Assembly (NCBI GenBank): GCA_021300575.1
Contig: JAJTDM010000027.1
Location: forward strand, 1 to 64,000
Length of the DNA: 64,000 bases
Direction of reading: 5' to 3'
DNA from: Rubrivivax sp.
GTDB taxonomy: Bacteria; Pseudomonadota; Gammaproteobacteria; Burkholderiales; Burkholderiaceae_C
The stretch's first letter is position 1. Each line of letters starts with the position of its first letter. This document shows, one piece after another, positions 16,869-44,408 of the stretch. The position numbers and the translations under genes are program-made. The notes beneath the pieces are model-generated. The model was not told the origin of the DNA, ran no database searches, and worked only from the letters and a program-made list of their open reading frames with translations.

Positions 16869-18003
16869 GTGAACCTTCTCGATCTCGATCACGAATCTCT
16901 CATCGCTCATGTCGAGGGACTGGGCGAGAAGCGTTTCCGGGCCACCCAGCTCTTCCGCTGGATGCATCGGCGAGGGGAGTCCGAATTCGGCAGGATGACC
17001 GACCTTGCCAGGAGCCTGCGAGAAAAGCTGGAGGGCACGCATCGGATCTCTGCGCTTCCGCTGCTTTCGGAGCATGTCTCTTCTGATGGAACGGTCAAGT
17101 GGCTGTTTGACGTGGGCAACGGCAACGCGGTCGAAACGGTCTTCATTCCGGAGGCGGATCGGGGTACCTTGTGCGTGTCTTCGCAGGCCGGTTGTGCGGT
17201 GGGTTGTCCGTTCTGCTCGACGGGGCATCAGGGCTTCAACCGCAATCTGCGAACGGGCGAGATCCTGGGGCAGTTGTGGCACGCGGAACACCAACTCCGG
17301 GGCCGCTTGCGGCTGCCCGACAACGAGCGGGCCGTGGACAACGTCGTGATGATGGGGATGGGCGAGCCCCTTCAGAACTACGCGGCCTTGGTCCCGGCCT
17401 TGAGGGTGATGCTCGACGACCATGCCTACGGCCTGTCGCGCAGGCGGGTCACGGTGTCCACCTCGGGAGTGGTTCCGATGATGGATCGGCTGCGGCATGA
17501 TTGCCCTGTGGCGCTGGCGGTTTCCCTGCATGCACCGGACGATGCGCTGCGTGACGATCTGGTGCCCCTGAACCGCAAGTACCCGCTGAGGGAACTCCTT
17601 GGCGCCTGCGTCCGGTATCTGGAATCGGCCCCGCGGGACTTCATCACTTTCGAGTACTGCATGCTCGAAGGCGTCAATGACTCTGATGTGCATGCGGCCC
17701 GGTTGGTGGACCTCGTGCGCGGCCGCTCAGAGGATTCCGCCGGCATCGAGGTGTCGTGCAAGTTCAACCTCATCCCGTTCAATCCCTTTCCTTCGTCGGG
17801 TCTGAAGCGCTCCAGCCCGCAGAGGGTCAGCGCGTTTGCAGCGCTGCTGCAAGAGGCGGGTTACGTGACCACTGTGCGCAAGACCCGAGGAGACGATATC
17901 GACGCAGCCTGCGGTCAGCTTGCAGCTGAGGTCCAGGACCGTACCGACGGCCAGGCGTTCTGGCCGCTCGATTGCCATCCAGCCAGTGCGGATGTTGTCA
18001 TGA
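16869..18003 (+). CDS. rlmN: Dual-specificity 23S rRNA/tRNA (adenine-C2)-methyltransferase RlmN, C-terminus frame-disrupted
   Basis: RlmN is a radical-SAM enzyme that methylates A2503 of 23S rRNA and A37 of some tRNAs. The GTG start at 16869 gives [14 protein letters not shown]; the cluster motif [11 protein letters not shown] and the conserved [12 protein letters not shown] and [13 protein letters not shown] are intact. Homology runs to QDRT (residue 359, base 17945). The same frame then runs on without a stop into pilF. In the +1 frame, codons from 17947 encode a tail containing [11 protein letters not shown], resembling the normal RlmN ending (IDIKAV in E. coli), with TGA at 18001-18003. 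A single inserted base near 17946 would explain the fusion. The end given here is that of the presumed ancestral gene. Confidence 0.85.
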
Positions 18004-18821
18004 TGGTTTTTCGCGCTGCCGGATTTCGTCGCTGGCCCGTTCTTTGGTCGCTCGCAGCGCTGTTGCTCGCGGCCCTGGTGGGTTGTGCGGCGGGGCCTGG
18101 CCAGGGGATGACTGACGATGTCAAGACCTCATCAGATCAGACGGATGCTGACAGGCGAGCCCGTGTGCGGATGGAATTGGCCGCGGGCTACTTCACGCGC
18201 GGCCAGATCTCCACAGCACTGGACGAAGTCAAGCTCGCCCTGGCAGCTCGTCCCGATTTGCCCGAGGCATTCAACCTGCGTGGGTTGATCTATGCCGCCA
18301 TGGGGGAGGCTCGGCTGGCCGAAGAAAGCTTCAGGCGAGCCTTGCAGTTGGCGCCACGTGATGCCGATGTGATGCACAACTTCGCCTGGTTTGTCTGTCA
18401 GTCCGGGCGATGGGCGGAGGCGGACGCCCTGTTCAGGCAGGCCCTGGCGCAACCGCAGTACCGCGACACCGTCAGGACGCTGATGGCCCAGGGCATCTGT
18501 CTTGCGGGTGGGCAAAGGTGGCCCGAGGCCGAGGCGGCGCTGAGTCGGGCTTACGAACTGGACCCTGCCAACCCTGTGACGGGCTTCCACCTGAGCGATC
18601 TGCTGTTCCGCCGGGGGGAGTACGAGCGTGCCCGCTTCTACATTCGGCGCGTGCACCTTCGACGGGAGTTCGCCACGCCGCAGTCGCTTTGGTTGGCCGT
18701 CAGGGTGGAGCGCCGCCTGGGCGACGCGGTGGCCATGCGCACGTGGGGCCAGCAACTCCAGGAGCGCTTTCCCCAGTCGTCCGAGACCCTGATGTACGAG
18801 AGGGGGCGCTTCGATGAGTGA
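18000..18821 (+). CDS. pilF: PilF/PilW-type TPR lipoprotein, type IV pilus biogenesis
   Basis: In the family this is an outer-membrane pilotin that helps assemble the PilQ secretin. From ATG 18000 (a second ATG is at 18003) the 273-aa product has an Arg-containing n-region, a hydrophobic stretch and the lipobox ALVGC, so it looks like a complete lipoprotein. Six or so TPR units follow, including [21 protein letters not shown] and [19 protein letters not shown]. The frame is continuous with rlmN upstream, but the topology argues for separate initiation here. The last 8 bp overlap the rodZ start. Confidence 0.88.
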
Positions 18822-32888: not shown

Positions 32889-32919
32889 CGTGTGATGCGC
32901 GCAAAGGCGCCGTCGTGTA

Positions 32920-33004
<85 letters not shown>

Positions 33005-33021
33005 ATTTCAGGAAAACCAAG

Positions 33022-33049
33022 AGTCTATCATCAAGAATTCAAAAAGCAA
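33022..33049 (-). promoter_or_regulatory. Candidate tRNA-Leu promoter
   Basis: On the minus strand, TTGCTT (complement of 33044-33049) and TAGACT (complement of 33022-33027) are separated by 16 bp, and the -10 lies 17 bp before the tRNA 5' end. It overlaps the place where the rnr start codon would be expected. Confidence 0.4.
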
Positions 33050-35215
33050 TCTCTCGTCGAACGCGGCGCCTGCTGGGGCCTCCGCGTCCTCATCCCCCGA
33101 TCTTCTGGGCGACGTCAAGGGCAGGGTGGAGGGACACCGGGACGGGCACGGCTTCGTTGCGCGTGACGACGGCGAGGGCTTCATCTTCCTGCCGCCAGCA
33201 GAAATGCGCGGTGTCCTGCATGGTGACGAAGTCAGCGTACGTATCGTTCGGCAAGACCGCAAGGGGCGGCCCGAGGGCCGAATTCTGGACATCTTGGCCA
33301 GGCCCCGGGCCAACATCATCGGCCGCCTGCTGCTGGAAAGTGGTGGCTGGATCGTCGCCCCGGAGGATCGCCGCTTCGGTCAGGACATCCTGATACCCAA
33401 AGGCGGCGTGGGCAGTGCCCAGGCCGGTCAGGTGGTTTGCGTGGAACTGACCGAGGCGCCGTCTCTTCACGCCAAGCCCGTGGGGCGCGTCGTGGAGGTG
33501 CTGGGGGAGATCGACGACCCCGGCATGGAAATCGAGATTGCCGTGCGCAAGTACGGTGTGCCCCATGAATTCCCGGCTGGGGTGGTGCTCGAGGCTGAAT
33601 CGCTGCCATCTGTGATTCGCGCCGTCGATCGGCGGCATCGGGTGGACCTGACCGACGTGCCGCTGGTGACGATCGATGGTGAAGATGCCCGGGACTTTGA
33701 TGATGCGGTCTACTGCGAGCCCGTGCCGATGGCCAAGGGCAAGGGGGCCCGGCCCCAGTGGCGCCTGATCGTGGCCATTGCCGACGTGAGCCATTACGTG
33801 AAGCCAGGTTCGGCGCTCGATGCCGAGGCCTACGAGCGGGCCACCTCGGTCTACTTTCCGCGCCGGGTGATCCCCATGCTGCCGGAGCGCCTGTCCAACG
33901 GGTTGTGTTCGCTGAATCCCGAAGCGGACCGCCTGTCCATGGTGTGCGACATGCTGGTGGACGACACCGGCGAGGTGCAGGCCTACCAGTTCTTCCCTGC
34001 CGTGATGCGCTCGCATGCAAGGTTCACGTATACCGAGGTGGCGGCGATTCTCGGCAACACCCGCGGGCCGGAGGCGGCCCGCCGCGCGCCGCTGGTGCCC
34101 CACCTGGTCCACCTGCACGAGGTCTACAGGGCTTTGCTCAAGCAACGGGCGCGGCGCGGTGCCGTGGACTTCGACACCACCGAAACGCAGATCGTCTGCG
34201 ATGAGTCGGGGCGTATCGAGAAGATCGTGCCCCGGGTCCGGACCGAGGCGCACCGGCTCATCTCGGGCTGTCCATCAGCGACGATCCGCGCCCCTCGGAG
34301 ATGCAATCCGTGGCCGAGGCCACGCGTGACCGGCCCGATGCGGCACAGATCCACCAAATGCTGCTGCGCTCCATGCAGCAGGCGATCTACACCCCCGTCA
34401 ACAGCGGGCACTTCGGCTTGTCGTTTGATGCGTACACCCATTTCACAAGCCCCATCCGCCGGTATCCCGACCTGTTGGTCCACCGCGTGATCAAGGCCTT
34501 GCTGGGGCAGAAGACCTACCGCTTCGTGCCTTCCGCGTTGCGCATGCCTCCGCAACCACGCCGAGCGCTGTCTTCGAAGGCACCACCCGCCGCAGCGCGG
34601 CCCCAGGACAAGCAGTCACTGGCCTGGCAGGCTGCCGGCCTGCACACCAGCGCCAGCGAGCGCCGTGCAGACGAAGCCTCGCGGGACGTGGAGGCCTGGC
34701 TGAAATGCCGCTTCATGAAGGGGCGCCTGGGCGAGGAATTCCAGGGCACCGTCACGTCTGTGGTGGGCTTTGGCCTGTTCGTCACCTTGGACGAGTTGCA
34801 CGTGGAGGGCTTGGTGCACGTGACGGAATTGGGTGGCGAGTACTTCCGCTTCGACGAGCTTCGACAGGAACTCCGGGGTGACCGCAGTGGCATGCGCTAC
34901 GGAGTGGGCACGCGGGTGCGGGTGCAGGTCAGCCGGGTGGACCTCGACGGTCGTCGCATCGATTTCAGGATGGTCAAGGATGCCGCGGCGGCCTGGTCTG
35001 CCAGCCGCTCCCGAACGCCGGGGGTGGAACGCCCACCACCGTCCACTTCTTCGGACCTGCTGGCGGCGACGCTGGCCGAGGATCGAGAGCTCAAATCCAA
35101 GGCGCGCAAGACCAAGGCGGCGTCGTCGCCCTCCAGGAAGATGGCCAACCGCGCCAAGGGGTCGGGCAAACCGAAGTCGGCGGCCTCCAGCAAGCGTGCT
35201 CGACGTCAAGGTTGA
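33030..35215 (+). pseudogene. rnr: Ribonuclease R, disrupted by internal deletion and frame change
   Basis: RNase R is a 3'-5' exoribonuclease. The first part has cold-shock-like domains (GRVEGHRDGHGFVARDDGEG, PEDRRFGQDILIPKG) and the catalytic Asp cluster DGEDARDFDDAVY. It is homologous up to EAHRLI at 34262. There about 44 expected residues (the EECMILAN-type block onwards) are absent and the frame changes. The second part resumes at LGLSISDDPRPSEMQ, keeps HFTSPIRRYPDLL, the S1 domain (FQGTVTSVVGFGLFVTLDEL) and a basic tail, and ends at 35215. No ATG/GTG/TTG lies in frame between the tRNA and GTG 33126; the codon expected to be Met reads ATC (33030). It is probably inactive if the sequence is correct. 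Confidence 0.8.
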
Positions 35216-41007: not shown

Positions 41008-41898
41008 ATGCTGGGCCAGCGCATCGTCACCGCGGTCGTGCTGCTGGCCCTTCTGGTGCCCGCGATGCTGTCCTCTGCCGGGTGGCCTTTCCCACTCTTG
41101 ACCATGGTGCTGGTGGCGGCCGCCGGGTGGGAGTGGGCCCGATTGAACGGGGCTGGCTCGGTCATGGCGCTGGGTTTCGGCGCGGTGTTGTTCGTGGCCT
41201 GTCTGGGATCGGCCCCACTGGCAATTCAGGGCCAGGTGCCTGCCGGGCTTTGGGTGGGCTTGGCGGGCGTCTGGATCCTGGGTGGTGCGTGGGCGCTGCG
41301 CCAAGGTGTGGAGGGTTGGCGCCGCAGTTCCCGTTGGCTGACATGGCCGGTCGGGCTGCTGACACTCTGGGTGGCCTGGCTGGCCTTGGCCTCGGCGCGG
41401 GCGCAGGGGCTCGCGTTCCTGCTGTCCGTGCTGTGCCTGGTCTGGGTGGCAGACATTGCCGCGTACTTTGGTGGCCGCGCCTTCGGGCGGCGAAAGCTCG
41501 CACCCTCCATCAGTCCCGGCAAGTCATGGGAAGGCGTTTGCTCGGGCATGGCAGGGGTACTGCTGCTTTCCTGGGTCTGGGCGGCGCTGGAGGGCCATGG
41601 TGCGCCGCAGCCCAGCGTCAGCGGCGATGGTTCCAGCACGGTCGCTGGCGTAGCGGCGGCATGGGGATCAAGCGTCTTCTCACAGTTGTTCGGCCGCTTC
41701 GGCCTTGCCTGGGGAGTATTCCTGTTGATCTTGCTGACCGCCATGAGCGTGGTGGGTGATCTGTTCGAATCCCTGGTGAAGCGGGCTGCGGGCGCAAAAG
41801 ACTCCAGCCGTCTGCTGCCAGGTCACGGGGGGGTGCTGGACCGCATCGACGCTTTGCTGCCCGTTTTTCCTCTGGCTTTGGCCCTTACAAGTTCATGA
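41008..41898 (+). CDS. cdsA: Phosphatidate cytidylyltransferase
   Basis: A 296-aa membrane enzyme forming CDP-diacylglycerol, with about eight hydrophobic helices. The family signature near the C-terminus is complete: SLVKRAAGAKDSSRLLPGHGG then VLDRIDAL. A Ser/Gly-rich insertion lies near residue 195-220. The stop overlaps the dxr start by 4 bp. Confidence 0.95.
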   Translation: MLGQRIVTAVVLLALLVPAMLSSAGWPFPLLTMVLVAAAGWEWARLNGAGSVMALGFGAVLFVACLGSAPLAIQGQVPAGLWVGLAGVWILGGAWALRQGVEGWRRSSRWLTWPVGLLTLWVAWLALASARAQGLAFLLSVLCLVWVADIAAYFGGRAFGRRKLAPSISPGKSWEGVCSGMAGVLLLSWVWAALEGHGAPQPSVSGDGSSTVAGVAAAWGSSVFSQLFGRFGLAWGVFLLILLTAMSVVGDLFESLVKRAAGAKDSSRLLPGHGGVLDRIDALLPVFPLALALTSS

Positions 41899-43080
41899 GC
41901 AGCATCACATCGGGACGCCGCCAGCGTCTGGCCATCCTCGGATCCACGGGGTCTGTGGGGTCGAACACGCTTGACGTGGCTCAGCGTCACCCGGAGGCGA
42001 TCGAAGTGGTGGGGCTTTCGGCCTTCAGGCGCATGGAGGATCTTGCGGCGCAGTGCGAGCGCTTTGGTCCCCGCTGGGCGGTGGTGCCTGACGCCGCCGC
42101 CGCCAAGTGTCTGCGTGGCCTGCTGTCCGCGGACGCACAGCGGGTGGAAATCCTTGTCGGAACCGAGGGCCTGTGCGAGCTTGCGGCGCACCCGGAGGTG
42201 GACAGTGTCATGGCCTCTATCGTTGGCGCTGCAGGGCTCGCGCCCTGCCTGGCAGCGGCCCGCGCCGGCAAGCGCCTGCTGCTGGCCAACAAGGAGGCGC
42301 TGGTGGTCGGTGGCGCCTTGTTCATCCAGGCGGTGAGGGAAGGTGGTGCCACGCTCCTGCCCATCGACAGCGAGCACTCCGCCATCTTCCAGTGCCTGCC
42401 TTTGGATCGCCAGGATTGGCCTGCGTTCATCGACCACATCGTGCTGACCGCCTCCGGCGGGCCGTTCCGGCAGGGTGACCCTGCCGGCTTTCATGCCATC
42501 ACCCCGGCGCAGGCGGTGGCTCATCCGAACTGGGTCATGGGACGCAAGATCTCGGTGGACTCGGCCACCATGATGAACAAGGCCCTTGAGGTGATCGAGG
42601 CGCGGTGGCTGTTCGACTTGCCTGCGCAAGACATCCGTGTCGTCATCCATCCCCAGAGCATCATCCATTCCATGGTGGTCTGCCGGGACGCTTCCGTTCT
42701 GGCCCAGTTGGGAACGCCGGACATGCGAGTGCCCATCGCCTATGGCCTGTCGTTTCCCTCCCGCATAGCTTCCGGTGCTTCGCGACTGGACTTGCTGTCC
42801 GTGTCATCGCTCACCTTCGAGGCGCCAGACGATGCGAGGTTTCCCGGCTTGAAACTGGCCTACGACGTGTTGGCTGGGCCCGAAGGCTCCAGTGTGGTGC
42901 TCAATGCTGCCAACGAGGTGGCGGTACAGGCCTTCCTTGACGAGCGGGTGCGTTTTACCGACATCCATCGGATCAACCAGTCCACGCTCGAAGCCCTGTC
43001 CGGACGCTTCGAACGCCCCAGGTCACTGGAGGATCTGCTCGAACTCGATGCGCGTATCACGGCGCTTGCCTTCGTGCTGA
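41895..43080 (+). CDS. dxr: 1-deoxy-D-xylulose-5-phosphate reductoisomerase (Dxr), joined in frame to rseP
   Basis: Second enzyme of the MEP isoprenoid pathway. NADPH binding is GSTGSVGSNTLDV; the catalytic segments are ANKEALVVGG, PIDSEHSAIFQCL and NWVMGRKISVDSATMMNKALEV, all intact. Homology runs to SLEDLLELDA near residue 386. The frame then continues without a stop into RseP sequence (ITALAFVLTLG). In the +1 frame, codons 43054-43080 read VSRRLPSC followed by TGA, giving a protein of about 395 aa, the family norm. A one-base insertion near 43047-43054 would explain the join. The end given is that of the presumed ancestral gene. Confidence 0.87.
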
Positions 43081-44408
43081 CCTTGGGCGTGCTCGTGGTG
43101 ATCCACGAGTACGGTCACTACCGAGCTGCCCTGGCCTGCAATGTCAAGGTCTTGAGGTTCTCGGTGGGCTTTGGTCGCGTGTTGTGGAGTCGCCGCATGG
43201 GGGCGGACGGCACCGAGTTCGTCGTCTGCGCGCTGCCCTTGGGGGGCTACGTGCGGATGCTGGACGAACGTGAAGGCCCCGTCGACCCAGGCCTGGCGCA
43301 CCGTGCCTTCAACCGCAAGCGCCTGTGGCAGCGCGCCTTCGTGGTGGTCGCCGGACCTGCGGCCAACCTGCTGCTGGCGGTGCTGCTGTACAGCGGCGTC
43401 CAGTGGGTAGGCGTGATGGAACCCAAGGCCATCCTGAGCGCGCCGCCAGCCTCCAGCGTCGCGGCCCGGGCGGGACTGAAGTCTGGCGACTGGGTCAGGG
43501 CGCGGTCTGCCGACGGGACGAACTGGCAGGACATCCGCTCGATGGCGGACCTTCGTTGGCACTCCCTCGAGGCCCAGATGGAGCGAGAGCCTTTGTACCT
43601 CATGCTGTCGGACACCCAGGGGCGCGGCAGTCGAAATGTGCGCCTGGATTTTGGCGCTGTCAGTGCAGACCCGCAGTCATCCGATGCGCTGCGCAGCGTG
43701 GGCTTGGGAGTCCCTTGGTCACCGGCCCTGCTCGGTGAGATCAAGGCGGGGGGGCCTGCGGATCAGGCCGGGCTGCGCAGAGGCGATACCGTCACGGCAG
43801 TTAACGGCGTGGCCATCCTTGATGCGCAGATGCTGCGTGAAGCCATTCAAGCCCGCGCTGAGCAGCCCATGGTCTGGACAGTCGACCGTGCCGGCCAGAC
43901 GATTCAGCTCACGGTCCGTCCGCGGGCCGACAGGTCGGGAAATGGCGCGGTGGGGCGGATCGACGCCTTCGTCGGTCTCGCGCCCCAGAGCGTCCTGGTT
44001 TCTTCGGGCGCGCTGGAGGGACTCATGGAGGGCGCACGCAAGACCTGGGACGTCTCAGCGCTGACGGTTTCCATGATCGGGCGGATGATCGTCGGGGAAG
44101 CGTCCATCAAGAATCTCAGCGGGCCTCTGACGATTGCGGACTTTGCGGGCCAGTCCGCCCAGCGGGGCTGGACCAGTTACCTGGCCTTCCTGGCGCTGGT
44201 GAGTGTGAGCCTGGGCATCTTGAACCTGCTGCCGCTGCCCATGCTCGATGGCGGGCACCTGATGTATTATCTTTTCGAAGGGTTGACTGGTCGTCCGGTC
44301 CCCGACGCTTGGCTCGAGCGGTTGCAGCGCGGTGGTCTTGCGATACTGCTGGCGCTGATGTCCGTGGCACTCTTCAACGACGTCGCCCGACTTGTCGGTT
44401 TCCACTGA
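43056..44408 (+). CDS. rseP: RIP metalloprotease RseP, start codon not recognisable
   Basis: A site-2 intramembrane protease that cleaves anti-sigma factors and remnant signal peptides. The moiety is about 450 aa, the normal size. It shows HEYGH (HExxH zinc motif) in the first helix, FSVGFGRVLW, GPAANLLLAVLLY, two PDZ segments, and NLLPLPMLDGGHL with the third zinc ligand. Family proteins start a few residues before AFVLTLGV; here that codon is ATC (43056), and the first in-frame GTG is 43074, which would shorten helix 1. It is read in frame from dxr. bamA follows. Confidence 0.87.
   Translation: MTALAFVLTLGVLVVIHEYGHYRAALACNVKVLRFSVGFGRVLWSRRMGADGTEFVVCALPLGGYVRMLDEREGPVDPGLAHRAFNRKRLWQRAFVVVAGPAANLLLAVLLYSGVQWVGVMEPKAILSAPPASSVAARAGLKSGDWVRARSADGTNWQDIRSMADLRWHSLEAQMEREPLYLMLSDTQGRGSRNVRLDFGAVSADPQSSDALRSVGLGVPWSPALLGEIKAGGPADQAGLRRGDTVTAVNGVAILDAQMLREAIQARAEQPMVWTVDRAGQTIQLTVRPRADRSGNGAVGRIDAFVGLAPQSVLVSSGALEGLMEGARKTWDVSALTVSMIGRMIVGEASIKNLSGPLTIADFAGQSAQRGWTSYLAFLALVSVSLGILNLLPLPMLDGGHLMYYLFEGLTGRPVPDAWLERLQRGGLAILLALMSVALFNDVARLVGFH

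Follow-up and report, generated by a model that had tools for sequence, protein, structure and literature searches.

An apparent Dxr-RseP fusion in a Rubrivivax draft genome: a probable assembly artefact

In Burkholderiales, dxr and rseP are separate, adjacent genes within a cluster whose members we take to be uppS, cdsA, dxr, rseP and bamA. RseP is described in PMC10024687 as a protein with four transmembrane helices and periplasmic PDZ domains, essential in E. coli, where cells can do without it once the porins OmpA and OmpC are lowered. The window analysed here is a 64,000-nucleotide stretch of a draft genome of Rubrivivax sp. (4.72 Mb, 179 contigs, estimated completeness 97.68%). Its genes around the locus, named from what their translations presumably encode, are pyrH, frr, uppS, cdsA, dxr-rseP, bamA, skp, lpxD, fabZ, lpxA, lpxB and rnhB. 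The locus resembles the usual cluster in its proteins, Dxr and RseP each being 95–97% identical to those of the closest relative compared (G020, apparently the same record as L052/L005), and in the overlap between cdsA and dxr. It differs from the separate genes of the order in that both the dxr stop codon and the rseP start codon are missing. A full-text literature search for a Dxr-RseP fusion found nothing relevant, only work on DrpB and cell division that we judged unrelated.

One reading frame across dxr and rseP

A single stop-free frame of 837 codons (837 aa) runs from an ATG at 41895 to a TGA ending at 44408, as the original prediction had stated, and the domains of both enzymes are complete within it. 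Three Pfam domains of Dxr lie at residues 12–140, 154–240 and 272–388 (PF02670, PF08436, PF13288). They are followed by Peptidase_M50 (PF02163) at residues 392–821, matched over the full profile (1–221 of 221); a PDZ domain (PF17820) is matched as well. The NCBIfam models agree: TIGR00243 (Dxr) covers residues 11–389 with 467.9 bits against a cut-off of 315.7, and TIGR00054 (RseP) covers residues 390–834 with 308.4 bits against a cut-off of 147.55. A further model, NF008046, scored 338.3, under its own cut-off of 477. These matches bear out the claim that Dxr homology ends at LELDA and that RseP begins directly after it. The translation also contains HEYGH and NLLPLPMLDGG, which we take to be the HExxH and LDG motifs of RseP. 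The first part is assigned to Dxr by its NAD-binding, catalytic and C-terminal domains (residues 12–388), and the second to RseP, a site-2 protease of the M50 type, by its M50 domain, its HExxH and LDG motifs and its PDZ region. The parts are as follows.

41895..43055, + strand: dxr part, residues 1–387 of 837, without the C-terminal tail of its relatives (domains, alignment to relatives)
43055..43056, + strand: blunt join, at which G020/L052 has 47 additional bases; no microhomology (alignment)
43056..44408, + strand: rseP part, beginning at the second codon (codon 2) of rseP in the relative and ending at the stop (domains, alignment to relatives)

A genome-wide search found no second dxr or rseP. 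The two other matches in this genome are limited to residues 572–643 and 583–675, which correspond to the PDZ region. A scan of 42800–43300 for promoters and terminators found neither.

The dxr-rseP junction in relatives

Alignment to G020 accounts for the fused frame. The DNA on the two flanks of the join is 93% and 95% identical and gap-free, and between window positions 43055 and 43056 G020/L052 is longer by exactly 47 bases. These bases encode the last 15 residues of Dxr (the tail reads ARSHATTAAGRTLAP in L052) and also contain the dxr stop codon and the ATG of rseP; their absence is why the window lacks both the stop and the start. The dxr stop of the relative overlaps the rseP start by four bases, the two genes being read in different frames. 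A loss of 47 bases shifts the frame and, as the overlapping genes are read in different frames, happens to bring rseP into that of dxr. No microhomology was found at the edges of the 47-base gap.

A more distant relative (L053; 84% protein identity for Dxr, 78% for RseP) has the same longer arrangement, and the short state of the window is therefore derived. The reverse polarity, in which a fused form was ancestral and the 47 bases were inserted in the relatives, has virtually no likelihood: nothing was found in its favour, L053 has the homologous stretch, and in all 104 other junctions described below, other families of the order included, a dxr stop precedes the end of rseP.

The original prediction had suggested a comparison with the closest relatives, and this shows separate genes and an indel. 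The indel is not of the kind proposed: 47 bases are missing, whereas the proposal was that one extra base near 43047–43054 had abolished a dxr stop at 43078 and so shifted rseP into frame. The TGA on which that proposal relied is present at 43078–43080 in the +1 frame. The +1 frame before it is unlike the Dxr tail of either L052 or L053, so the Dxr-like tail reported there does not hold up. The same TGA lies out of frame inside the intact rseP of L052 and is not the dxr stop, and the alignment to L052 and L053 contains the 47-base gap and no 1-base gap. The alignment refutes a single extra base as the cause of the fused frame.

To see whether the fused arrangement occurs elsewhere, we collected 122 dxr-rseP loci; after removal of 14 duplicates, 3 incomplete loci and the window's own, 104 distinct junctions remained. 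None of them is fused (0/104). In every one, including those from other families of the order, a dxr stop is met before rseP ends. The dxr stop and rseP start overlap by four bases in 68 of the 104 (ATGA in 43, GTGA in 21, TTGA in 4), and the remaining 36 have no such overlap. Within the window, the cdsA stop and dxr start likewise overlap by four bases (41895–41898); the two also overlap in G020. The frequency of such overlaps, cdsA-dxr in the window and dxr-rseP in the relatives, may reflect translational coupling.

When 299 family genomes, the present one included, were searched, 293 gave a match. Here stops were read in single matches that span both genes: among the matches listed there are 24, of which only that of the present genome is stop-free, the other 23 having one to three stops each. 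Five genomes (G033, G048, G041, G037 and G054) had appeared to hold further fusions by virtue of one long shared frame length; on direct reading, a dxr stop separates the genes in all five. In the 104 junctions and the matches listed, the fused form neither recurs in relatives nor is kept over divergence.

Prospects for a fused chain

One alternative is that the 47 bp were deleted recently in this lineage, giving a true Dxr-RseP fusion whose chain is cut, is started internally, or inserts its first helix in an unusual way. The intact frame and the two complete sets of domains are in keeping with such an event, as is the nature of the deleted piece, which takes only the rseP start codon and the Dxr tail, itself variable in relatives (14–48 codons from the end of the alignment to the stop). 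Against it stand the 104 unfused junctions, and also the expected topology of the product.

The first helix of RseP is inserted N-out, and a cytosolic Dxr ahead of it would conflict with such insertion. The original prediction made the same point, and we judge it reasonable in view of this orientation and of the four helices and periplasmic PDZ domains noted at the outset. Internal initiation within the RseP part, for instance at GTG 43074, had been suggested as a way out. We found no good start for it. The RseP part has no in-frame ATG within its initial 90 bases, and the start-type codons that come first in frame are GTG 43074, CTG 43077, TTG 43083 and GTG 43089. The earliest of these lies, as we read it, within the first helix, seven codons after the RseP part begins. 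Between 42991 and 43120 a single Shine-Dalgarno-like stretch was seen, GGAGGA at 43028, ~40 bases upstream of GTG 43074, which leaves no plausible ribosome binding site near an in-frame start. Our inspection of the locus found no feature that would resolve the start or topology problem of a fused chain. Overall, we consider a real fusion unlikely.

Sequence losses elsewhere in the draft

The window and the G020 contig are collinear over 64 kb at ~93.7–93.8% identity, and the dxr-rseP junction is not the only place where the window is shorter. A second site interrupts rnr (RNase R).

34262..34263, + strand: blunt loss of 139 bp compared with G020, shifting the frame of rnr; separate from the fusion, but taken as evidence of a shared cause (alignment, domain search)

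This loss splits rnr into two frames (window 32892–34490 and 34301–35215) and breaks the RNB domain, with profile positions 1–202 in one piece and 258–324 in the other; the intact rnr of G020 matches positions 1–324. Hairpins were considered as a cause of the losses and rejected, as the DNA, folded as a single strand, was no more stable than shuffled sequence: z was 1.19 for an 87-base segment of L052 surrounding the 47-bp piece, and 1.07 for a 150-base segment of G020 surrounding the piece lost from rnr.

We extended the comparison to 1.28 Mb of the draft against 1.24 Mb of G020 (12 contig pairs, 417,441 aligned columns). Leaving out stretches replaced on both sides, we counted 48 differences of 15–600 bp with almost no sequence on one side; the present genome is the shorter in 27 of them and G020 in 21. 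Twenty of the 48 form a clean set (at least 40 bp, little repeat content), with 14 shorter in the present genome and 6 shorter in G020, a modest excess on counts alone (sign test computed by hand, p ~0.1). The remaining 28, which are 15–39 bp long or repeat-like, divide almost evenly (13 and 15). In the clean set, the derived state was checked against a third genome at only two sites, dxr-rseP (L053) and pgsA (G011).

By our reading of the open reading frames listed, 8 of the 14 clean losses in the present genome are internal to a gene, 5 fall at the end of a gene or at a junction (dxr-rseP included) and 1 is in non-coding DNA; none of the 6 in G020 is internal to a gene. A stricter automatic phase test places 3/14 and 0/6, respectively, inside one coding frame. 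Microhomology does not separate the sets: it is absent from 7 of the 14 and 2 of the 6, the others having 1–6 bases. Among the affected or neighbouring genes, rnr, miaB, pgsA, rlmN and pilW were tested against family libraries, while an RND pump, an EamA transporter, a kinase, a nucleotidyltransferase, a TolA-like gene, a FAH pair, azlC/azlD, a DEAD-box gene and a CBS-domain gene were named by reading alone; the TolA-like loss falls in a low-complexity stretch. Two other observations come from the same survey. A run of six N occurs at position 2305 of contig C30, while contigs C2 and C3 consist of N throughout in the sequence analysed. In addition, rlmN and pilW share one 650-aa frame (window 16869–18821) owing to a 5-bp difference from G020 at 17948, with the pilW ATG kept.

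Three of the losses, that in rnr among them, are especially informative. PgsA, the enzyme that makes phosphatidylglycerol, is normally essential. In this genome the sole PgsA is missing residues 1–56 of 188 and with them profile positions 1–51 of 152, roughly one third of its CDP-alcohol phosphotransferase domain, owing to a 168-bp loss relative to G020 (contig C52 near 22890, L273). All 188 residues are present in both G020 and G011. The two other PgsA-family members of the genome have counterparts in both relatives, and hence no substitute for PgsA is visible. That the one copy of an enzyme normally essential to the cell is truncated suggests that sequence was dropped from the draft. In MiaB, a 147-bp loss relative to G020 (contig C150, L231 near 2911) removes 49 residues, including two of the three cysteines of what we take to be the radical-SAM cluster motif, and the Pfam Radical_SAM match begins only at profile position 12. 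A living population without all of the missing PgsA part, the MiaB cysteines and an intact rnr is much less likely than drop-outs in a draft. Losses such as that in pgsA cannot all be harmless, which also weighs against the dxr-rseP join being a real deletion.

A probable assembly artefact as the best explanation

Taken together, these comparisons make it likely that the Dxr-RseP fusion is an assembly artefact. In the organism, dxr and rseP would be distinct neighbours within a cdsA-dxr-rseP-bamA cluster of the usual kind, and the assembled contig would have dropped the 47 bases that run from the Dxr tail through the dxr stop to the rseP start. This loss and the others probably date from assembly or consensus building and would be absent from the organism's own DNA. 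As a loss that spans the junction of two genes preserves the frame one time in three, a draft with losses at this rate would be expected to hold some in-frame fusions by chance. The original prediction had left the choice between an indel error and a true fusion; the former is the better supported, and the latter finds no support in the relatives.

The losses of this draft are like the drop-outs and indel artefacts of draft or metagenome-assembled genomes in their size (47–243 bp), in their microhomology of 0–6 bases and in that several break conserved genes, one of them normally essential. Similar losses thus occur elsewhere in the assembly (14 versus 6 in the clean set), also in genes expected to be conserved or essential, as seen for PgsA, MiaB and rnr. 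A term search for literature on assembly errors and gene fusion in metagenome-assembled genomes found none.

Several points speak against an artefact. Both rnr and miaB are non-essential, and their breakage could be real in nature. Dxr and RseP both keep complete domains in one frame, which could be due to selection; chance alone would give this outcome in one third of cases. Finally, the estimated completeness of the genome is high, and the contig contains no N at the join.

Were the fusion real, isoprenoid synthesis and the sigma-E stress protease would be joined in a single polypeptide chain, subject to cleavage or internal initiation or inserted with an unusual topology. Such a chain would be a natural test of a multi-pass protease with an external N-terminus placed behind a cytosolic domain of the 40-kDa class. 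More generally, the locus carries a caution: a gene fusion seen in a single draft needs to be checked against near relatives for missing sequence, and against the loss rate of the assembly, before it is given a biological meaning.
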